Positions 1 through 9,925 of a stretch of DNA of 21,885 bases are shown here, one piece after another. The stretch is from IMG/VR virus record IMGVR_UViG_3300025120_000645, positions 1 through 21,885 of that record; one strand, 5' to 3'. This DNA is from a virus. Position 1 is the stretch's first letter. Each line of letters begins with the position of its first letter. The notes under the pieces are model-generated. The model was given only the letters and a program-made list of their open reading frames with translations, was not told where the DNA came from and made no database searches. The translations under genes and the position numbers were made by a program.

Positions 1-2312
1 GAGTCATCGCAGATGATGCAATCTTAACCGCAAACATAGCAGATGATCAGATTACGTCTGCGCTAATTGCGGACGATGTTGCTTTGGGTGGTAATCCAAC
101 TACCTCTACTCAAACCGCTGGCAACAACACAACCAGAATAGCAACGACAGCTTTCGTGAGTACGGCTGTTGCAAATATTGTAAATTCTGCGCCATCAACC
201 CTAGACACATTAGGGGAAATAGCCACAGCTCTTAATAACGATGCAGCTCTCAATACAACCCTAACTAACTCAATAGCCACAAAGCTACCCCTAGCAGGTG
301 GAACTTTGACGGGTGCTTTAGATGTTGCTGGTTTAACATCTGTAAATTCAGGTAATAATAGTGGCGTAGCTTTAAAAATTGGTGGTGAGGGTGGTAATGG
401 ATTAAAAACACAATATGTCTTAGCTTCTGGACACACTAATTTTCAAATTGGTGTAGCTACACACGCAGCAAGTGTATTTTCAATAACACCTTCTACAGCA
501 GCAGGAAACACTACTTTTACTAATGCTGCTTTAAATATTAATGCTTCAGGAAACGTAGGTATCGGAACGAGTTCGCCATCTTCAGCCCTTGAACTTTCTG
601 GATCAGCTACTGCAAACGCTAGGCTTACGCTTGCACAAACTACTGCTGGCCTATCTTCACAAATTCAACAAGGTAGCTCAGGCTTAGCAATTTCCGCTTT
701 AGGCTCTCAAAGTCTTTTGCTAAATACAAATGGTAGCGAACGAGCCAGAATAGACTCATCAGGTAACTTGGGTATCGGAACGACTAGTCCTATTAGTAGG
801 CTCAACGTAAAAGGAACACAAGGAAACTGGCGTGTTGATCCCGATTCTGTATCAGCAGAAATACAAGTGCTTACAACTACTGTTGCAAATGATGGCTTTA
901 GGAATTTCAGATTGCGTAGTAACGACACTATTTTTGAAAATGGCGGTTCAGAAAGAGCGCGCATTACCTCATCAGGAAACGTAGGTATCGGAACTAATTC
1001 TCCAAATAGTTATAGTGGGTTTACAACTTTAACTCTAAATGACACTAGCGGTAGTTTATTAGATTTAGAAGTAAATGGAACTCTAACTGGTGAAGTTTAT
1101 GCCGATGCAAGTAATGGTATTGGTATGCAGGCAGTCGGTTCAAGACATATCCAGTTTAAAACTAATAACACAGAAAGAATGGTTATTCTTGCTGACGGGA
1201 AAATAGGTATCGGAACTGATAGTCCTGACTTTAGACTTGTTGTAAAAGGAGCAGCAGCTACTAATGATAATATATTTAAAATAGAAGATTCGGCAGGAAC
1301 AAAGATGGCTTCTATGGAGCAAGATTCATCTGGTAATGGTCGTTGGATAGTTTGTGATACTTCTGGAAATGCAGATGTTTTAATACATACCGCAGGAAAT
1401 TCTTATTTTAATGGTGGAAACGTAGGCATAGGAACTTCGAGTCCTTCTAACGCTAAATTAGAAGTAGTTGCTACATCAGGTGAAGTATTTAGGGCAGATG
1501 CTAATGGTGGTGCATTTAGAATATTTGCTGACCAAGATGGTGTAAAGATGAACGGAAACGTAGGTATAGGAACTACGAGTCCTGCCACAAAACTACACAT
1601 AGCTGATGTAGGTGGTATTGAGTTAAGACTAGATGCAGATACAAACAATAATGGTCAAGAAGATTGTTTTATAAAATTCTCAACAGATGGTGGACTGCAA
1701 ACTGGTTTATGCGGAATGGACAATAACAACAGTAGCACTTTATTTAGTGGTAATACTGAAAACGCTATGGTCTTTGGTACTGTTAGTAATCTACCTACAA
1801 TCTTTGCTACAAATAATACTGAAAGATTCCACATAACTTCTGGTGGTGACATCTCAATGGGTGTGACTAAAAAGTTTTCTTTTTCATCAGATGAAGATAC
1901 TTATATGTCTGAATACTCTGCTAATGAATTTGAAATAAGAACAGGTGGTGGGAGAAGATTTGCATTAAGTGGTGGTAATACATTTATTTCTGGTTCATTA
2001 ACACAAAATCATAATTTTTCAGATGAAAGATTAAAAGAAAATATTGTTGTAATACCAAATGCACTTCAAAAAGTAAGTAGCTTGAGAGGTATAACTTTTA
2101 CAAGAAAAGCTGATGGAAGTGTAGGAACAGGATTAATAGCACAAGAGTTAGAAAAAGTATTACCTGAAGCTGTTTTTGAAAGTAAGACAATAGAATCACT
2201 AGAAGACCCTGATGCTGAAGAATACAAAAGTATCAGATATGAAACAACTGTTGGATTATTAGTAGAAGCAATCAAAGAACTAGAAGCAAGAATTAAAACC
2301 CTAGAGGGATAA
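1..2312 (+). CDS. Tail fibre 1 with C-terminal peptidase S74 chaperone domain (5' partial)
   Basis: The reading frame is open from base 3, so the gene starts left of the window. The TTG at 84 is not its start: the codons before it encode IADD-type repeats matching the N-terminus of the next gene. After the N-terminal segment (GGNPTTSTQ, then LPLAGGTLTG near base 290) come at least six G-N-V-G-I-G-T-x-S-P type repeats, usual in trimeric beta-rich phage fibres. The C-terminus is an S74 intramolecular chaperone domain, with the conserved FSDERLKEN at about 2016-2042. Ser at 2019 and Lys at 2034 fit the self-cleavage dyad known in the family, which would release about 97 residues. It ends in a coiled-coil stretch (KELEARIKTLEG). 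The expected role is receptor binding, with trimerisation guided by the cleaved chaperone. The next gene begins 2 bases after the stop and is a partial paralogue. Confidence 0.93.
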   Translation, partial: VIADDAILTANIADDQITSALIADDVALGGNPTTSTQTAGNNTTRIATTAFVSTAVANIVNSAPSTLDTLGEIATALNNDAALNTTLTNSIATKLPLAGGTLTGALDVAGLTSVNSGNNSGVALKIGGEGGNGLKTQYVLASGHTNFQIGVATHAASVFSITPSTAAGNTTFTNAALNINASGNVGIGTSSPSSALELSGSATANARLTLAQTTAGLSSQIQQGSSGLAISALGSQSLLLNTNGSERARIDSSGNLGIGTTSPISRLNVKGTQGNWRVDPDSVSAEIQVLTTTVANDGFRNFRLRSNDTIFENGGSERARITSSGNVGIGTNSPNSYSGFTTLTLNDTSGSLLDLEVNGTLTGEVYADASNGIGMQAVGSRHIQFKTNNTERMVILADGKIGIGTDSPDFRLVVKGAAATNDNIFKIEDSAGTKMASMEQDSSGNGRWIVCDTSGNADVLIHTAGNSYFNGGNVGIGTSSPSNAKLEVVATSGEVFRADANGGAFRIFADQDGVKMNGNVGIGTTSPATKLHIADVGGIELRLDADTNNNGQEDCFIKFSTDGGLQTGLCGMDNNNSSTLFSGNTENAMVFGTVSNLPTIFATNNTERFHITSGGDISMGVTKKFSFSSDEDTYMSEYSANEFEIRTGGGRRFALSGGNTFISGSLTQNHNFSDERLKENIVVIPNALQKVSSLRGITFTRKADGSVGTGLIAQELEKVLPEAVFESKTIESLEDPDAEEYKSIRYETTVGLLVEAIKELEARIKTLEG
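549..1573 (+). repeat. Dispersed GNVGIGT-coding repeats in tail fibre 1
   Basis: A 20-base unit, ggaaacgtaggtatcggaac, occurs exactly at 549-568 and 975-994. Variants are at 762-781, about 1198-1217, 1416-1435 and 1554-1573, and another lies in fibre 2 near 3511-3530. All are in frame and encode G-(N/K)-(V/I/L)-G-I-G-T. The spacing is irregular, about 135 to 225 bases. The protein repeat is an ordinary fibre motif. The near-identity at DNA level makes these plausible sites for recombination between fibre modules (inference). Confidence 0.8.
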
Positions 2313-2313
2313 T

Positions 2314-4314
2314 ATGACAAACACTAAAGTACAAAGTGAACAGATAGCAGATGATGCTGTTGTAACATCACATATAGCAGATAGCGTAGGTTTGGGAGGA
2401 TCTCCTACTACGACAACTCAATCTGCAAGCGATAACTCTACCAAGATCGCTACAACCGCTTATGTTGATGCGGCGTTTACTGCTTTGGTTGACTCTTCTC
2501 CAGCTGCTTTAAATACGCTCAATGAGCTTGCGGCGGCACTAGGTGATGATGCTAACTTTAGTACGACAGTTACTAATTCTATAGCCACAAAGCTACCGCT
2601 AGCAGGTGGCACTATGACAGGTGATTTGATACTCGGTGATGATGTAAAAGCTATCTTTGGAGCTGGTTCAGATTTACAGATTTATCACGATGGTAGTAAT
2701 AGCTTTATAGATAACAGCTCAGGAAGTCTAACAATAGATTCAGGGGTTCACCTATTTATTAAAAATGTTACTGGTGAATCACTTGCGAATTTTTTGGCAA
2801 ATGATGCGGTAGAACTGTACTACGATAATGCTAAAAAACTAGCCACAACCTCATCAGGTGTAGACGTAACAGGAACTCTTACAGCTACAACACTAGCAGG
2901 AACATTATCTACAGCAGCACAAACAAATATAACAAGTTTAGGTACTCTTACTTCCCTTACAGTAGACGATATAACCATTAATGATTCTACTATTTCTGAT
3001 GCAGCCAATTTTACTATAGACGTTGGTGGAGATATTATTCTTGATGCTGATGGTCAACAAATATTTTTAAAAGATGGTGGGGTATCTTTTGGTATGCTTT
3101 CAACAGATAGCACTCCTTCTGATTTTATTATTAGTTCTAGGGTTGACGACAAAGATATAATATTTAGAGGTATAGATGGTAGTTCTGATATTACTGCGTT
3201 GAGACTTGATATGTCTGATGCAGGTAAGGCTGTCTTTAATTCAGGAGCAGAGTTTCATGGTCTTGTAGACAATCAAATTTCTCACTCATCCACAGATGTA
3301 ACAGAAGCTAATTCCAATGCCACACTGCGAATTGGAAACGTAGCAGCAGGTAATGGCATTTACAATGCAATTAAGTTTTCAGCGAACCAACAAGATATGT
3401 ATATCATGTCTTTTAATAATAGCGCACAAGCCGACAGACGAATGGGTTTCTTTTTAGGCTCTGTTGCAGGTGATGCGGTTGCTGACGAAAGATTATCTAT
3501 CAGAGGTGACGGAAAAGTAGGCATAGGTACTACGAGTCCTGCTCATAATCTTCATGTGGTTTCATCAGGTAATGCAGAATTAGAGATTGAAAGAACAGGT
3601 GGCGCGGCAGTATTTACACAAGCACAATCTGCTTTAGGTGTTACTGGAACTTCTTCAAATCACGATTTTGGTTTACTAACTAACGGTGCTGTAAGGATGC
3701 GTATTGATAACACAGGAAGTGTTTTTATGGGAGGAACATCTGGTTCTTTTAATGCAAGGCTGACTCTTGAAAGAGAGACTTATAGTATTGAATCAAGAAG
3801 CACAGGAACAGGTAGTGAAGGTCATGTTGTATTTAGAAATGGTAATGGTGCTGTAGGTTCAATATTTACAAATGCATCAGCAACAGCTTACAACACCTCT
3901 TCAGATTATAGATTAAAAGAAAACGTAGACTACACATGGGATGCAACTACACGATTAAAACAATTAAAACCTGCAAGATTTAATTTTAAAAATGATGCTG
4001 ATAATACAGTTGATGGTTTCTTAGCACATGAAGTAGCAAGTATTGTTCCTGAGTCTATTACTGGAACAAAAGATGCAAGCGAAACTAAAACAAATTGTGT
4101 GTTAATGGCAGGTGGTAGTGTATTTGCAGATGGTGTTACTGAAGCAGAATGGACACAAGGCAAAACAGATGGTACTTACGAAAGTGATACAACTTGGGTA
4201 GCAAGCAAAACAGAAGCTGTTTATCAACAAATAGACCAAGCTAAATTAGTACCTCTGTTAGTTAAAACTATACAAGAACTAGAAGCAAGAATTAAAACTC
4301 TAGAGGAATCTTAA
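2314..4314 (+). CDS. Tail fibre 2 with C-terminal peptidase S74 chaperone domain
   Basis: A complete 666-residue fibre. The N-terminus (TNTKVQSEQIADD, then GGSPTTTTQSASDNSTKIATT) is closely related to that of fibre 1, as is the following LPLAGGTMTG segment. The middle carries DLQIYHDGSN and TLAGTLSTAAQTNITSLGTL motifs, widespread in marine phage fibres, then one GKVGIGTTSP unit. The S74 domain begins at SSDYRLKEN: Ser530 and Lys535 are the expected dyad, releasing about 137 residues. The domain has an insert relative to fibre 1 before the shared terminal coiled coil QELEARIKTLEES. The likely role is an adhesin assembled as a trimer. The stop codon overlaps the ATG of a short remnant of a further fibre gene. 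Two adjacent fibres could bind different receptors or form one composite fibre; sequence alone does not decide. Confidence 0.94.
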   Translation: MTNTKVQSEQIADDAVVTSHIADSVGLGGSPTTTTQSASDNSTKIATTAYVDAAFTALVDSSPAALNTLNELAAALGDDANFSTTVTNSIATKLPLAGGTMTGDLILGDDVKAIFGAGSDLQIYHDGSNSFIDNSSGSLTIDSGVHLFIKNVTGESLANFLANDAVELYYDNAKKLATTSSGVDVTGTLTATTLAGTLSTAAQTNITSLGTLTSLTVDDITINDSTISDAANFTIDVGGDIILDADGQQIFLKDGGVSFGMLSTDSTPSDFIISSRVDDKDIIFRGIDGSSDITALRLDMSDAGKAVFNSGAEFHGLVDNQISHSSTDVTEANSNATLRIGNVAAGNGIYNAIKFSANQQDMYIMSFNNSAQADRRMGFFLGSVAGDAVADERLSIRGDGKVGIGTTSPAHNLHVVSSGNAELEIERTGGAAVFTQAQSALGVTGTSSNHDFGLLTNGAVRMRIDNTGSVFMGGTSGSFNARLTLERETYSIESRSTGTGSEGHVVFRNGNGAVGSIFTNASATAYNTSSDYRLKENVDYTWDATTRLKQLKPARFNFKNDADNTVDGFLAHEVASIVPESITGTKDASETKTNCVLMAGGSVFADGVTEAEWTQGKTDGTYESDTTWVASKTEAVYQQIDQAKLVPLLVKTIQELEARIKTLEES

Positions 4315-4349: not shown

Positions 4350-4700
4350 ATGGATGACGCAGTCTTACTTATATCAGAGTTGGGTGTGCCTACTGCGGCC
4401 CTAGTAGCCGTTGGATTTTTTCTCTACAAACTTATATTTAAGATCATTGATGGCATGACTGAAAAGGTAGATGTTTTAGATGATAAGGTGCAAGCAAGTC
4501 TAGATACAATGGAAGAAAGATTAACGACTAAACTAGATTCACAATATGGGATTATAGTCAGCTTGATTGACAGGGTAAGAATGATTGATCAATCACTCTT
4601 AAGAAATGATGTGTTACTCAAAACCTTAGTAAAAATGCCTGAGTTGATAGATACCAACGAAATAACTAAGGCACAAAAAGAAGATCAAAGAAAAGACTGA
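4350..4700 (+). CDS. Small membrane-anchored coiled-coil protein
   Basis: A 116-residue protein with one N-terminal membrane segment (about residues 14-36, TAALVAVGFFLYKLIF). A heptad-rich, charged region follows (about 37-75), then a polar tail ending KEDQRKD. No enzyme motif is visible. The size and layout fit accessory lysis proteins (holin- or antiholin-like, or a membrane tether), but I do not recognise the family. A separate three-TM holin follows the cassette at 9443. The gene starts 3 bases after the fibre remnant, and its stop is directly followed by the csgF start (TGAATG), suggesting co-translation. It is not CsgE: it has neither a cleavable signal peptide nor CsgE-like sequence. 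Confidence 0.8.
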   Translation: MDDAVLLISELGVPTAALVAVGFFLYKLIFKIIDGMTEKVDVLDDKVQASLDTMEERLTTKLDSQYGIIVSLIDRVRMIDQSLLRNDVLLKTLVKMPELIDTNEITKAQKEDQRKD

Positions 4701-5162
4701 ATGACCGGAACTGAAATGAAATTAATATTAGTTAATACAATATTTTTTATTTTTTTATTTCAGGTGTTATATGCAGATCAGATGGTGCATAAATTTAAGA
4801 ATCCAAGTTTTTCTGGCAACGGTACATCTAATCATTATTTTTTTACTGAACAGACAGAGTTTCAAAGAAAAGAAGCAATACGTGAAGAGATAAAGGCTTA
4901 TCAAGACGAACTGGCCAGAGAAGCGGAAAACACTACGCTAGCTAGATTTATTCGCAATCTTGAATCACGCATCTATGCACAAATTTCGCGTCAATTAGTA
5001 GAGAGTTTATTTGGCGAAACCGCTTCTGAGTTTGGTTCATTAGAGCTCGAAGGCAACACAATAGAATACGAAGTAGAAGACGATAAAATTACATTAACGA
5101 TTACAGATGAAAATGGAGATACTACGGTCATTACCGTTCCTTTGGGTTCTTTTACTTTCTAG
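4701..5162 (+). CDS. csgF: CsgF-like curli assembly factor
   Basis: A 153-residue secreted protein. A signal peptide (about residues 6-25, ending QVLYA before DQM) makes the internal ATG at 4716 an equally plausible start. Mature residues 26-56 match the part of CsgF that inserts into the CsgG pore: HKFKNPSFSGNGTSNHYFF against the E. coli pattern FxFRNPxFGGNPxNGxxLL. A charged helical middle (about 54-105) is followed by a C-terminal beta region, LTITDENGDTTVITV, similar to the E. coli end. In the known system CsgF lines the extracellular side of CsgG and places the nucleator at the surface. The last 18 codons overlap the csgG signal-peptide region in another frame. The family call is by eye but rests on the diagnostic N-terminal motif and on csgG following directly. 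Confidence 0.88.
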   Translation: MTGTEMKLILVNTIFFIFLFQVLYADQMVHKFKNPSFSGNGTSNHYFFTEQTEFQRKEAIREEIKAYQDELAREAENTTLARFIRNLESRIYAQISRQLVESLFGETASEFGSLELEGNTIEYEVEDDKITLTITDENGDTTVITVPLGSFTF

Positions 5163-5970
5163 CTGTACGTTAAAATATGACGATCTTTTAAATAGTGGTG
5201 GTGTACCTAACATAACTGTAAAACCAGCCACAATTACAGATCTACAGTCTAAAGAATTAAAAGAAGTAATACCGCCAAAAAGAAAACCTACTATAGCGGT
5301 TTACCCAACAAGTTTTACTGACCAGACAGGCCAAAGAAAAAGCAACAGTGAGTTTGCTTTATTTAGTACAGCAATTACACAAGCTCCGCATGCTTATCTA
5401 ATTAGAGCTCTAAAGCACGCTTCAGATGGAAACTTTTTTCAAGTCATTGAACGTATTGGTTTAGATAACTTAGTCAAAGAAAGAACATTAATAAGATCCA
5501 CCAGAGAAGGATTTAAGCAAAAAGAGCTTGGACCACTTTTACATGCAGGATTGTTGTTAGAGGGTGCGGTCGTAGATCTATCAACCAACGCTAAATCTGG
5601 TGGGATGGGAGCTCGCTGGCTAGGAGTTTCTTCTAGCTCTCAATACAGAGTAGATACCGTGCAGATATCACTGAGACTTATATCAGTTTTGACTGGTGAA
5701 GTTTTGATAGAAGTAGGTAGCTCTAAAACGATCTTATCAAAAACGATTTCACAAGACTTGTTCAGGTTTATAGAACTTGGGACCGAACTCATTGAGATCG
5801 AAGGTGGTTTTGCGGAAAACGAAAGCGTTTCTTTAGCATTGCAAAAAGCAGTAGAGAAATGTGTGTTAGAAATTATAAACATAGGATACCGGCGAGGGTA
5901 TTGGGAACATGAAAAAATTATTATTGAGCCTAGCTGCGATGACGAGTGCATTGCTGTTATACGCGGCTGA
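5107..5970 (+). CDS. csgG: CsgG-like outer-membrane curli secretion lipoprotein
   Basis: A 287-residue lipoprotein. Its signal peptide ends in a lipobox, LSSC, giving lipidated Cys20. It aligns with E. coli CsgG over most of its length: IAVYPTSFTDQTGQ, ERIGLDNLVKERTLIR, NAKSGGMGARWLG, SLRLISVLTGEVL, SKTILSK and FRFIE. CsgG forms a nonameric barrel that exports curlin subunits by diffusion, with CsgE and CsgF as partners. In the constriction loop, the Phe56 equivalent appears kept (F86), while the Asn55 position looks like Leu (L85) and the loop is one residue longer (by-eye alignment). The C-terminus after RGYWE diverges and holds two Cys (C277, C281); this end is overprinted by the next gene's signal peptide. 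It begins inside csgF (56-base overlap) in the +1 frame, which argues for coupled translation. Confidence 0.95.
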   Translation: MKMEILRSLPFLWVLLLSSCTLKYDDLLNSGGVPNITVKPATITDLQSKELKEVIPPKRKPTIAVYPTSFTDQTGQRKSNSEFALFSTAITQAPHAYLIRALKHASDGNFFQVIERIGLDNLVKERTLIRSTREGFKQKELGPLLHAGLLLEGAVVDLSTNAKSGGMGARWLGVSSSSQYRVDTVQISLRLISVLTGEVLIEVGSSKTILSKTISQDLFRFIELGTELIEIEGGFAENESVSLALQKAVEKCVLEIINIGYRRGYWEHEKIIIEPSCDDECIAVIRG

Positions 5971-6628
5971 TAGCGAAATTTATATTGATCAGAGCGGTGG
6001 TACTGCTTTGAATTTAGACATTGAACAGATCAATGGATCTGGAAACCTTATTGGTGGTGCAACAGCTACTGCTGGTTCTATGACACCATTAGATTTAGAT
6101 GGCGCATCTATGAGCTTAGACGTTTTGCAGAAAGGCTCAAATAATAAATACTTAGGCGATATTTGGGCTGACAGTTACACAGGGTATTTTTCTTTCCTTG
6201 GTTCAACAAACACTTTCAACATGCAAACAGATCCAACAAATACTTATGGGGCTGATTCTTCTGACGTAAACGTACAGGTAACAGGAAGCTCGAATAATAT
6301 GACACTTAATCAGGCCACAAATGCACTTGCAGCTACATTAAATTTAGACTGGATCATTCAAGGTTCAAACAACACCGTAACATCTTCTATAGATATAGAC
6401 GGTGCAACTAACTATATGGACATTGATGGTTCAGACAATGCTGTCACCTACGATGGAGACGGATACGCAGGCGGCTACTTTTGGCTAGACCATACTGGAG
6501 GATCAAGAACATTCAACATTACACAACAATCAACATCAGACAATGACTGGCTCAAAATTACATCTAATGGTTCTAATGGGACTATCTGTGTCAATCAGTC
6601 TGATTCCGCAACGTCTTTCGTGTGCTGA
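5909..6628 (+). CDS. Secreted curlin-like repeat protein, candidate CsgG substrate
   Basis: A 239-residue protein with a clear signal peptide (MKKLLLSLAAMTSALLLYAA, cut before DS). The mature part is acidic, rich in Asn, Gly, Ser and Thr, and built of degenerate strand-turn-strand units resembling curlin repeats: IEQINGSGNLI (38-48), VLQKGSNNKYLG (72-83), VQVTGSSNNMTLNQ (122-135), IIQGSNNTV (149-157) and FNITQQ followed by NGSNGTICVNQ (202-230). The canonical S-x5-Q-x-G-x2-N-x-A-x3-Q spacing is only partly kept. Two Cys near the end (C227, C239) could form a disulfide. The position directly after csgG, in a 62-base overlap in the +1 frame, makes it the likely exported fibre subunit (CsgA/CsgB-like). 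Whether it forms amyloid is not shown by sequence. A gcgaggg stretch 7-13 bases upstream supports this start. Confidence 0.8.
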   Translation: MKKLLLSLAAMTSALLLYAADSEIYIDQSGGTALNLDIEQINGSGNLIGGATATAGSMTPLDLDGASMSLDVLQKGSNNKYLGDIWADSYTGYFSFLGSTNTFNMQTDPTNTYGADSSDVNVQVTGSSNNMTLNQATNALAATLNLDWIIQGSNNTVTSSIDIDGATNYMDIDGSDNAVTYDGDGYAGGYFWLDHTGGSRTFNITQQSTSDNDWLKITSNGSNGTICVNQSDSATSFVC

Positions 6629-7655
6629 TTCTATAGGAGCAGTATCAGAGCTTAACGGCAACGCGCAAATAGAAAGAGACGGATTTTATAATGTTGCATT
6701 AAATTTTGGCATAGAGCAGCTAGACAATGTAAAGACAGCAGCCGGTAGACTTAAGATTACTTTTTTGGATGACTCTAAAGTATCTTTGACAGAACACTCT
6801 GAATTAAAGATTACTAAATACATTTTTAATCCAGATCCTCAAAAGTCAGAACTAGCACTCAAGTTTACAAGAGGTACAGCAAGGTTTGTAACCTCACAAC
6901 TTGGCAAGATAGCCAAACAAAACATAAAGCTATCGACAGAAGTGGCTGATATTGCGATCAAGGGAACGGATTTTACAATCACTATTGATGAGCTAAATAG
7001 AGCACTTTTGGTTCTATTGCCGGATCCTATGGGCCTAAGTAGTGGTGAAATAGAAGTTACTACGGCAATGGGTACAGTTATATTAAACCAACCGTTTCAG
7101 GCAACTACAGTATCTTCATACGTAAGTATGCCGACACCTCCGGTCGTTTTAGATATTAATCTAAATATGATTAATAACATGTTAATTGTGTCGGAGCCTG
7201 AAGAAGATGAAGAGCAATCTGAAGAATCGGACACAAGATCTGTAAACGTATTTTTAGATTTTAACGAACTAGATATTGATGCACTTGAAGACGATTCATT
7301 AGATCAAGATCAACTTGAATTTACAGAGCTTGACATAGATGCATTACAGGTTAATTTTCTTGAAGATCTTCTAAATGTATTAGATTCTTTAGCCATCACG
7401 CAAGAAGAAGATCAATTAGGCATTGCGACTGGTATAAAAATTACCGGTACCGAAATAGGACAAGATAAAGATACGCAGATCACGACACTAATACAGGGTC
7501 AAATGATTAGCTTTAGACGTAATGTAGGCAATTCATTGAGATTAGATCTTGATGGCGGTAACAGTTACACACTGACTATGTCGCAAAACAATGTGACCAA
7601 AGTTGTAACCGTCAATGGCGGCAATAATTCAACCATAAATATCACGCAACAATGA
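6543..7655 (+). CDS. Exported FecR-domain protein with acidic linker and curlin-like C-terminus
   Basis: A 370-residue protein. A signal peptide ends near RLSCADS (residues 24-30). Met1, Met9 (6567) and Met12 (6576) are all possible starts; Met9 gives a more typical length. Residues about 60-150 form a FecR-type domain: VKTAAGRLKITFLDDSKVSL, LTEHSELKI, FTRGTARFVT, and then VADIAIKGTDFTI. FecR domains act in the periplasm, in siderophore signalling and often in surface or sensor systems. Residues about 216-290 are an acidic linker with a 20-residue tandem duplication (ELDIDAL at 242 and 262). Residues about 325-370 form Asn/Gln/Thr-rich short strands ending NNSTINITQQ, like the curlin-like neighbour's FNITQQ. 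The gene overlaps the curlin-like gene in the +1 frame, and its stop overlaps the cyclase start (ATGA). It is probably an adaptor between fibre and sensor (inference). Confidence 0.85.
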   Translation: MTGSKLHLMVLMGLSVSISLIPQRLSCADSIGAVSELNGNAQIERDGFYNVALNFGIEQLDNVKTAAGRLKITFLDDSKVSLTEHSELKITKYIFNPDPQKSELALKFTRGTARFVTSQLGKIAKQNIKLSTEVADIAIKGTDFTITIDELNRALLVLLPDPMGLSSGEIEVTTAMGTVILNQPFQATTVSSYVSMPTPPVVLDINLNMINNMLIVSEPEEDEEQSEESDTRSVNVFLDFNELDIDALEDDSLDQDQLEFTELDIDALQVNFLEDLLNVLDSLAITQEEDQLGIATGIKITGTEIGQDKDTQITTLIQGQMISFRRNVGNSLRLDLDGGNSYTLTMSQNNVTKVVTVNGGNNSTINITQQ

Positions 7656-9433
7656 ATAAAACATTACAGTGGTTAAGCTTAACAACAATATTAGCTTTAC
7701 CTCTGCTGTTTCAGTCAACTTTTACTGAAATATTAAAGCTAAGGACTTTTGATTACTTGATAGAACGTCCAGAGTCTTCTGGAGTCTTTGTGGTAGTCAA
7801 TTTAGAAGAGCAGGATCTAGCAGATTATGGAGGCTGGCCCTTAAAAAGATCTGATTTAGCAAAAATCCATATGGATCTGTTAAACAGCGGAGCTTTAGGT
7901 GTGGGATATGGCATTAGTTTTAACTATCCTGACCGATTTGGTGGCGACGATGAATTTGCTAGTGCACTAAGAATCTATCCTAGTCTGCTTTCTATGTTTG
8001 AAAGAGACGATGGAACCGTACCAAGGCCGCACGGAACTGTATTACTAGGCCCAGAAGTTGACGGTCTGTCTATAAAAGGTGTTATTGAAAACATAGATAC
8101 CTTGAAAAATGCTGCTCAACAAGGACTAGTGTCAGCTCCATTGGATAAAGATGGTTTAGTTCGCAAGATTCCTTTGGTTTACAAAAGCAATGACGCTTGG
8201 GTGGCTAGTTTTGGTGCTCAGATACTTAAAATACTGACTCAAAGCTCTACATATATTATAAAAACAAGTGAAAATGGGATACAGGAAGTAACCGTACAAG
8301 GATTACCTCCAGTAAAAACAGATTCGCTTTCTAGAGTGTGGTTAACGTGGGCAAAAACATCACAAACTACGTTGAAAAATGCAAAAGTAGATGGTAAATT
8401 TGTCATACTAGGAACAAATTCTGCTGGCATACTTCCACAAATATCAACTCCAGTAGGATTACTAGAACCCCACCTAATTCAAGCAGCTCTAGCAGAGCAA
8501 ATGCTTATTCCTAACTCTCCATACATACCAGATTGGAGTCTAGCAGCAGAACTAGCTATATATGGTCTTACAGTAGGCTTTATTTGGCTATTTTTGAATG
8601 TTTTTGGCATAACATTTGGTTTTATATTAAGTGTTTCTACTATGGCTCTAACGGCATTTATAGGAGTCCATTTAGTAAGCAGAGGTTTGCTTCTAGATGT
8701 AAGTTGGTCATTGATTTCTGGATTTATTACTGGATCTGTAGCTTCATACTTGAACTACCGAACACAGTACAAGTTAAAACAGCAAATCAAAGCTCAGTTT
8801 GGCAAGTTTGTATCACCAGATGTTGTAGCTGAGTTGCAGGCACATCCTGAAAAATTAAGATTAGGCGGTGAGCGCAAAGAGATGTCGTTCCTTTTCATGG
8901 ACATTGTAGGATTTACCCCCGTTTCGGAATTTTACTCACAAAAAGACGATCCTGAAGGCTTGGTGGATCTGGTCAATAACTTCTTGGATAGAATGACAAA
9001 AATTTTGTTGGCTAGGCAGGGAACCATTGACAAGTATATGGGCGATTGCATCTTTTGTTTTTGGAATAGTCCTTTAGACACTGAAAAACACGCTGAACAA
9101 GCAGTATTAGCGGCCAAAGAATTAGAAGAAGAAGCCAGAATAATTAATGAAGAGTTTGTACAGCAAGGCTTACCTGAGATCAAAATTGGTACAGGAATTA
9201 ACACAGGTACGACTATTGTTGGTATGTATGGAAGTGAATTAAGATTGGATTATTCAGTCATGTCTGATGCGGTTAACTTAGCCGCTAGATTAGAAAGCCA
9301 AACTAGAAATTACGATTGCGACACGCTCATATCAGAGCATACGGTCGCTCAAGCACCTGATATATCTTTTACGTTTGTAGATGAAATACAAGTAAAAGGC
9401 AAAGAAGAAAGGGTAAAGGTTTACACAATATAA
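7652..9433 (+). CDS. CHASE2 sensor fused to class III adenylate cyclase
   Basis: A 593-residue inner-membrane receptor. One N-terminal membrane segment (about 6-22) is followed by a periplasmic CHASE2 domain (about 30-285; LRTFDYLIERP, YGGWPLKRSDLAKIH, SFNYPDRFGGDDEFA). Three closely spaced membrane segments follow (about 297-318, 320-342, 350-367), then a cytoplasmic class III cyclase domain (about 408-593). Metal-binding Asp417 (FLFMDIVGF) and Asp465 (KYMGD) are present, as are the transition-state Asn542 and Arg546 (DAVNLAARLE). Lys461 and Ser535 occupy the purine-specifying positions. Lys with Thr/Ser, in place of Asp, is the class IIIb pattern, so ATP to cAMP is expected; bicarbonate-responsive cyclases belong to that class. 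All catalytic residues are intact, so an active enzyme is likely. The gene overlaps the FecR gene by 4 bases. FecR and CHASE2-cyclase pairs occur in bacteria; in a phage this is unusual. Confidence 0.95.
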   Translation: MNKTLQWLSLTTILALPLLFQSTFTEILKLRTFDYLIERPESSGVFVVVNLEEQDLADYGGWPLKRSDLAKIHMDLLNSGALGVGYGISFNYPDRFGGDDEFASALRIYPSLLSMFERDDGTVPRPHGTVLLGPEVDGLSIKGVIENIDTLKNAAQQGLVSAPLDKDGLVRKIPLVYKSNDAWVASFGAQILKILTQSSTYIIKTSENGIQEVTVQGLPPVKTDSLSRVWLTWAKTSQTTLKNAKVDGKFVILGTNSAGILPQISTPVGLLEPHLIQAALAEQMLIPNSPYIPDWSLAAELAIYGLTVGFIWLFLNVFGITFGFILSVSTMALTAFIGVHLVSRGLLLDVSWSLISGFITGSVASYLNYRTQYKLKQQIKAQFGKFVSPDVVAELQAHPEKLRLGGERKEMSFLFMDIVGFTPVSEFYSQKDDPEGLVDLVNNFLDRMTKILLARQGTIDKYMGDCIFCFWNSPLDTEKHAEQAVLAAKELEEEARIINEEFVQQGLPEIKIGTGINTGTTIVGMYGSELRLDYSVMSDAVNLAARLESQTRNYDCDTLISEHTVAQAPDISFTFVDEIQVKGKEERVKVYTI

Positions 9434-9442
9434 GGAAAACTT

Positions 9443-9925
9443 ATGAAATTTAAAGCTATCAAAGGTTTGATTGGCGCGGTTGCTCCTACGCTTGGATCCG
9501 CATTGGCAGGTCCTATGGGCGGTATGGCGGCTAATCTAGTAGCAGAAGCTCTAGGTTGCGATCCTGAGCCGAAAAAAATAAATCAAGCTATGCAAGCAGC
9601 TACACCAGAACAGTTAGCAGAACTTAAAAAAGTTGAAACTGATTTTGAAGTAAGAATGAAAGAGTTAGAAGTTGATATCTTTGCACTAGAAACAGCAGAT
9701 GTCCAAGACGCTAGAAATAAATTTTCTAAAGATTGGACTTCTAGAATCATGGGTACGCTTATTGTGTGTGGTTTTTTGGGTTACATATTTATGGTAACGC
9801 TACAGCCACCAGAACAAAATTCCGAGGCATTGATTAACTTAGTGCTTGGCTACCTTGGAGGCTTGGCATCCGCTGTGATTAGTTTCTATTTTGGAAGCAG
9901 TCACAAACCTGATAACGATAATTAA
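9443..9925 (+). CDS. Three-TM holin (GTA-type holin family)
   Basis: A 160-residue protein. Residues 8-37 form a Gly/Ala-rich hydrophobic segment (IGAVAPTLGSALAGPMGGMA), followed by a charged helical region (about 55-95) and two further membrane segments: MGTLIVCGFLGYIFMVTL (about 108-126) and LINLVLGYLGGLASAVISFY (about 131-150). The end SFYFGSSH is characteristic of the 3TM holin family first noted in gene-transfer agents. Its role would be to permeabilise the inner membrane at the end of infection. It has a good ribosome-binding site (aagga at 9432-9436), which overlaps the cyclase stop codon. Confidence 0.85.
   Translation: MKFKAIKGLIGAVAPTLGSALAGPMGGMAANLVAEALGCDPEPKKINQAMQAATPEQLAELKKVETDFEVRMKELEVDIFALETADVQDARNKFSKDWTSRIMGTLIVCGFLGYIFMVTLQPPEQNSEALINLVLGYLGGLASAVISFYFGSSHKPDNDN

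Follow-up and report, generated by a model that had tools for sequence, protein, structure and literature searches.

Curli-type export genes have been known from phages of marine bacteria since a curli cluster was first reported in pelagimyophages (Zaragoza-Solas et al., 2020; PMC7029224). Subsequently, the gene set CsgF, CsgG, CsgA/B, FecR, in some cases a further CsgA/B, and an adenylate cyclase was described in HTVC023P-type pelagipodophages and in pelagimyophages (Wittmers et al., 2022; PMC9599517). In that study, the module was found to be widespread, its type VIII secretion system (T8SS) genes were found to be transcribed in marine metatranscriptomes, and CsgE was missing from pelagiphages. 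Superinfection defence and aggregation were proposed as functions, with nutrient uptake as an alternative. For phage Melnitz, which infects OM43 bacteria, the csgGF genes were proposed to form a possible lysis pore resembling a pinholin or a secretin (Buchholz et al., 2022; PMC9004378). Here, we describe a cassette of this kind in the complete IMG/VR record IMGVR_UViG_3300025120_000645 (21,885 bases; hereafter “the window”), in which five open reading frames (ORFs) at 4701-9433 encode, in this order, CsgF, CsgG, a curlin-like protein, a FecR-domain protein and a CHASE2-adenylate cyclase, situated between tail-fibre genes and a putative holin gene. The set, its order and its place had been proposed in a first-pass annotation of the letters alone and are borne out by the ORFs and by Pfam and PHROG matches. 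The accompanying suggestion that the combination was unreported does not hold, as the full set had been described in the two pelagiphage families (PMC9599517). The cassette is of a known marine kind, published in 2022, to which the carrier lineage, the site beside lysis genes and an exchange of cyclase domains are added here.

Comparison with described systems

The window cassette shares with the pelagiphage T8SS module (PMC9599517) its gene order, a small upstream gene, the absence of CsgE and the occurrence in marine phages. It differs in that the carrier is an integrase-bearing podophage of the 933W type instead of an HTVC023P-type or T4-like phage, in having a single curlin gene, and in an upstream gene that encodes no kinase. 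Lysis-gene neighbours, cyclase-domain swapping, an integrase and a temperate lifestyle are not described in the text of PMC9599517 that was searched. HTVC008M and Melnitz exhibit the same gene order as the window but carry a second curlin gene between the FecR and cyclase genes, and their cassettes lie outside the lysis module. Compared to the enterobacterial csgBAC/csgDEFG operons, homologues of CsgG and CsgF and a cargo of the curlin-repeat type are shared, whereas CsgE is absent, CsgD and CsgC were not seen, and FecR and the CHASE2-cyclase are added; the cargo is longer than CsgA and without close sequence similarity to it. Bacterial FecR-CHASE2 operons (for example BiofilmReg; PMC5192318) likewise place a periplasmic FecR protein beside a CHASE2 membrane sensor and are linked to surface biology. 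Their output, however, is a histidine kinase, while the window has an adenylate cyclase within a curli export set; a LysM domain is absent from the window cassette.

Distribution and conserved gene order

When viral contigs were scanned with alignments of CsgG and of the cyclase, each gave at least ~600 matches, so that the cassette can be regarded as common. The loci fetched for comparison (about 110 marine contigs) were picked by similarity to the window cassette, and all counts describe this family, not phage csgG genes in general; presence was counted only on contigs long enough to judge. Among these loci, the order small gene, csgF, csgG, curlin, FecR, cyclase shows no variation. The csgF gene adjoins csgG in 112 of 112 contigs, a curlin gene is present in 114 of 115, FecR accompanies csgG in 105 of 105, including contigs missing the cyclase, and a cyclase gene is found on either strand in 47 of 51. 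This gene order is far beyond chance, and the conservation of order across marine viral contigs that had been put forward as a check is fixed throughout. As FecR is present even where the cyclase is absent, it is tied to export and not to the cyclase, which points to FecR as a part of the export core. The small gene precedes csgF in 102/104 contigs and constitutes a sixth cassette member that the first-pass annotation had missed.

The genes of the cassette are tightly packed. In the window, csgG overlaps csgF by ~50 nucleotides (nt), and the median overlaps across carriers are 53 nt for csgF/csgG, 62 nt for csgG/curlin and 86 nt for curlin/FecR, most being roughly 50-90 nt, although these lengths are counted from the first possible start codon and the true overlaps may be shorter. 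The ratios of nonsynonymous to synonymous substitution rates (dN/dS) of csgF, csgG, the curlin gene and FecR (0.07-0.16) and of the cyclase among related phages (0.13-0.26) indicate purifying selection on all five genes.

Both flanks of the window cassette consist of phage genes, namely two tail-fibre genes with S74-type ends upstream, and the putative holin and internal virion protein genes downstream; related phages do not carry the cassette genes one by one in separate places. In podophages, the neighbours of the cassette are usually holin-type, endolysin and spanin genes, with lysis genes at a distance of no more than 9 kb in 37 of the 51 long contigs. Cassette genes were found upstream of the 933W-type internal virion protein in 5/64 contigs (L224, L262, L263, L271, L272), although several of the 64 start too near that gene to tell. 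A related contig without the cassette (L226) exhibits the empty site: its tail-fibre genes lead straight into a PHROG-confirmed holin gene and the internal virion protein gene.

Export channel and cassette-first gene

The CsgF and CsgG assignments rest on the domain matches listed in Table 1. In addition, E. coli CsgF aligns to window CsgF (E 0.06), the N-terminal NPxFxGN segment included. CsgE (PF10627) was found neither in the window nor in 10 carrier phage records or the two bacterial carriers described below. The HTVC008M counterpart of the 116-amino acid (aa) product of the small first gene matches phrog_18771 at 7e-41. Neither Pfam, searched for 29 homologues, nor NCBIfam, searched for the copies of the window, HTVC008M and Melnitz, gave a kinase family for this product. 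On its position and frequent duplication, the paper's own sequences not having been compared, the gene is evidently the “histidine kinase” of PMC9599517, yet it encodes no kinase domain.

Curlin-type cargo

The window cargo protein itself has no Pfam match. However, Curlin_rpt (PF07012) hits occur in 13 of the 48 homologues aligned, the best at 8.6e-6, and the AlphaFold model is a repetitive all-beta fold with a mean predicted local distance difference test (pLDDT) of 88 and a predicted template modelling score (pTM) of 0.84. The assignment as a curlin-repeat substrate holds at family level, on the strength of the relatives and the predicted structure. Two C-terminal cysteines, C227 and C239, are kept in 43-45 of the 48 aligned homologues. 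Podophage cargos have this pair almost without exception, whereas myophage copies lack it and bacterial copies do not retain it as a pair.

FecR-domain protein

The model of the FecR protein resembles the periplasmic signalling domains of PupR and BDI_1681 (E about 2e-5), while its profile found no match among PDB sequences. Neither Pfam nor the model revealed a transmembrane anchor or an anti-sigma domain, and no sigma gene is present in the cassette. Judged by domain content and model, the window FecR is a soluble secreted protein that, apart from the FecR signalling domain, lacks the hallmarks of an anti-sigma regulator. A further fold match over 65 aa was to 5IX9, a “cell surface anchoring domain” (E 0.01; the part aligned is unspecified). 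The last residues of the protein (GGxxSTIxIxQ) resemble a curlin repeat, but a curlin-like tail is not claimed, as the profile-profile comparison gave a probability of 5.7% (E 0.0067).

CHASE2-adenylate cyclase

In the window cyclase, the catalytic residues comprise the metal-binding aspartates D417 and D465, K461 and S535 at the adenine site, and N542 and R546 for the transition state, and all six positions are filled in 112/114 phage cyclases. The protein thus carries the active site of class III cyclases and is a predicted producer of cyclic adenosine monophosphate (cAMP). In the cyclase of Melnitz (L007:11694-13745), and apparently in that of L167, Asp occupies the Ser/Thr position and Ser that of the transition-state Asn, and activity may be altered.

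The two halves of the protein have different relatives. In the trees, the CHASE2 half of the window protein groups with podophages (100/100) and the cyclase half with HTVC008M and some podophages (100/98). Likewise, identity to HTVC008M is 26% in the CHASE2 part and 61% in the cyclase part, as against 51% and 42% for contig L002. By the evidence of trees and alignments, these discordant groupings and identities show that the cyclase domain has been exchanged between phage lineages at the domain boundary.

Among the 51 contigs long enough, the cyclase lies on the same strand as the cassette in 43, on the opposite strand in 4 and is absent from 4. Loci with a cyclase downstream of FecR on the opposite strand are L017, L018, L028, L030, L043, L066, L073 and L075; in these, it cannot share the cassette transcript.

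SAR11 genomes mostly offer no known cAMP machinery. Among 128 Pelagibacteraceae genomes, class III cyclases above the cut-off were found only in two metagenome-assembled genomes (MAGs) with binned cassette contigs; such genomes may be incomplete, and other kinds of cAMP receptor are possible. No phage-encoded cyclic nucleotide monophosphate (cNMP)-binding domain was found in 24 carrier phage records.

Carrier phage and flanking genes

Contig L224 (G655), 45.6 kb long, aligns with 15.6 kb of the window at 99.72% and encodes a tyrosine integrase (PF00589, 8e-20) as well as a helix-turn-helix (HTH) repressor-like gene. Beside the integrase lies a segment that, read by eye in reverse complement, gives the 3' part of a tRNA-Ser(GCT) gene; ARAGORN called no complete tRNA there. 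From its gene content, the carrier is an integrase-bearing podophage of the 933W structural type, and the integrase, the repressor-like gene and the tRNA segment suggest that it is probably temperate. A related contig (L008) carries an integrase and a cassette without the cyclase (L008:167-5500), in which FecR is followed by the integrase gene on the opposite strand. In L319:9461-9560, a 3' segment of tRNA-Ser(GCT), in reverse complement, adjoins the integrase and is a likely attachment site.

Table 1. Features of the cassette and its flanks in the window.
Feature	Coordinates	Strand	Evidence
Tail-fibre protein ending in S74 endosialidase-chaperone domain (flank)	84..2312	+	Pfam PF13884 8e-14; PHROG tail fibre 2e-39
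Second tail-fibre/virion protein with S74 domain (flank)	2314..4314	+	Pfam PF13884 9.7e-6; phrog_19195 7.4e-60
Small cassette-first gene, 116 aa; a single hydrophobic stretch at the N-terminus followed by a charged, coiled-coil-like region	4350..4700	+	phrog_18771
csgF, extracellular accessory of the CsgG channel	4701..5162	+	PF10614 3e-20
csgG, outer-membrane export channel, lipobox LSSC	5107..5970	+	PF03783 7.6e-47; PDB CsgG 6e-40 over residues 34-269
Curlin-type cargo; signal peptide and repetitive beta protein	5909..6628	+	Homologues match PF07012; AlphaFold model
Periplasmic protein with signal peptide, FecR domain, disordered linker and a beta domain at the C-terminus	6543..7655	+	PF04773 1e-8
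CHASE2 sensor (residues 12-309) fused to class III adenylate cyclase (about 405-593)	7652..9433	+	PF05226 5e-27; PF00211 (Guanylate_cyc) 1.2e-17; PDB cyclases 1e-29
Small membrane protein, putative holin by position (flank)	9443..9925	+	phrog_1544 8e-27 (no function assigned in PHROG); slot is that of the PHROG holin in L226
933W-type internal virion protein, marker of the phage backbone	10118..11797	+	phrog_511 6.5e-162; 35% identity to Vibrio phage douglas 12A4

Bacterial carriers

Two Caulobacteraceae genomes (L169, L170) exhibit the arrangement csgF-csgG-curlin-curlin-FecR-CHASE2-cyclase on chromosomal contigs, amid glycosyltransferase, peptidase, phosphoesterase and metabolic genes and with no recognised phage genes. 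In the other fetched bacterial loci, which mostly cover ~8 kb on each side of csgG with a few cut by contig ends, neither FecR nor a cyclase was found nearby. In the CsgG tree, the Caulobacteraceae pair is nested with podophages as its neighbours (97/89), but a clade made up of phages only is compatible with the data (approximately unbiased test, p-AU 0.235), and the tree is compatible both with a donor-like and with a phage-derived origin of the pair. Phage-type cassette contigs also occur in GTDB MAGs assigned to Maricaulis, Flavobacteriaceae, Pelagibacter, Rhodobacteraceae and Synechococcus (L163, L164, L165, L166, L167, L168, L173) and are probably phage contigs binned with the host. An unannotated GenBank entry of 1,499 nt, “Salmonella phage S.Kent 1-2-1” (OR851715.1), contains a csgG-like stretch and is possibly a bacterial fragment.

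Proposed function and alternative explanations

We favour, with somewhat better than even confidence, the view that the window holds a phage-borne type VIII (curli-type) export cassette in an integrase-bearing 933W-type podophage, inserted just before the lysis genes and serving export late in infection, with FecR as a periplasmic adaptor and cAMP as an optional output. In this model, the cassette would be expressed late, together with the fibre and lysis genes. CsgG would form a pore in the outer membrane on which CsgF docks, as their homology suggests, and the curlin-type beta protein would be secreted and presented on the surface of the infected cell. The FecR protein, soluble in the periplasm and constantly encoded together with csgG, might act as an adaptor or checkpoint of the export apparatus, replacing the absent CsgE. 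Where present, the CHASE2-cyclase may read the periplasmic state and make cAMP; its catalytic residues are in place, while its activity is a prediction. The likeliest benefit would be a change of the cell surface late in infection, which could exclude competing phage or clump neighbouring cells. That the genes form one phage-borne, envelope-directed set of export channel, cargo, periplasmic protein and membrane cyclase, as the first-pass annotation had it, agrees with the domains and the fixed co-occurrence, and the recurrence of lysis-gene neighbours in different podophage backbones was counted as further support. So were the empty site of L226, the lack of CsgE, purifying selection, the intact catalytic residues, the Caulobacteraceae sets and the published transcripts.

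Several observations weigh against this view. Late expression is deduced from gene position and direction, and export, fibre formation and cAMP production are predictions from the genes. OM43 cells infected with Melnitz showed no clumping (PMC9004378). A fold search of the cargo against the PDB gave no significant match, the CsgA fibril 8ENQ scoring E 4.5, and the conserved C-terminal cysteine pair could speak against open-ended amyloid growth. The use of a cAMP step is questioned by the presence of cNMP-binding domains in only 9 of the 128 Pelagibacteraceae (SAR11) genomes. Finally, a search of 318 alphaproteobacterial and 303 gammaproteobacterial genomes for the tRNA-Ser segment on the integrase side, as the bacterial attachment site, found no match and named no host.

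The lysis-gene neighbours make a pore that helps to time or complete lysis the strongest rival. In it, CsgG/CsgF would serve as a pore or a secretin-like channel of the outer membrane, plugged or gated by the curlin and FecR proteins, following the idea of Buchholz et al. for Melnitz. In unrelated backbones, the podophage cassette adjoins holin, endolysin or spanin genes; a role like that of a pinholin or secretin has been proposed (PMC9004378), and the absence of CsgE leaves gating unexplained. A bare pore, however, needs no cargo, and the cargo gene is near-universal and conserved (dN/dS 0.07 against L008); moreover, many carriers encode their own spanins and endolysin, and the myophage cassettes lie away from lysis genes. 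We consider this explanation possible but considerably less probable than late export. The same cargo gene, kept in nearly every copy, also argues against an uptake channel, the published alternative (PMC9599517) in which a CsgG pore, unplugged without CsgE, would admit larger nutrients or cofactors and FecR would be linked to iron. The lack of CsgE and the FecR domain are consistent with it. However, the FecR protein here has a signal peptide but neither an anti-sigma portion nor a membrane portion and so is not the iron-transport FecR, and the cassette showed neither a TonB receptor gene nor one for uptake, which makes uptake very unlikely.

An improbable, though slightly better placed, alternative is lysogenic conversion, in which a prophage-expressed cassette would give lysogens a surface fibre or phage exclusion. 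The tyrosine integrase, the HTH repressor-like gene and the tRNA-Ser(GCT) 3' segment of the carrier contig would fit it, as would the integrase of L008. However, the cassette runs in the same direction as the fibre and lysis genes that surround it, and most fetched carriers look HTVC023P-type or T4-like, with no integrase seen here, so that its role cannot depend on lysogeny. Of the proposal that the cassette remodels the surface of infected or lysogenic cells, the change in infected cells is retained as the likeliest benefit, whereas the role in lysogens, where a set running with tail-fibre and lysis genes would presumably be silent, is weakened. As a general scheme, cAMP signalling to the host is likewise weakened by the scarcity of cNMP-binding domains and class III cyclases in SAR11, host of HTVC008M, and by the lack of cNMP-binding domains in the carrier records. 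More speculatively, and with a small chance of being correct, the cassette may be a phage-specific envelope checkpoint with its own second messenger: FecR and CHASE2 would read curlin export in the periplasm, and cAMP, via an unrecognised receptor, would tune late infection or lysis in cells otherwise mostly without cAMP machinery, sensor and cyclase being swapped as separate modules between phage lineages.

Implications

What looks like a complete set for protein export is carried by phages of abundant ocean bacteria, while those of their hosts that have been studied lack it. The window extends this cassette to an integrase-bearing podophage lineage, and the analysis corrects the annotation of one of its constant genes. 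The two bacterial genomes with the full set run counter to the published view that FecR and the cyclase lie outside bacterial curli operons. Lastly, a conserved cyclase in phages whose hosts are mostly without known cAMP machinery poses a concrete and testable puzzle.

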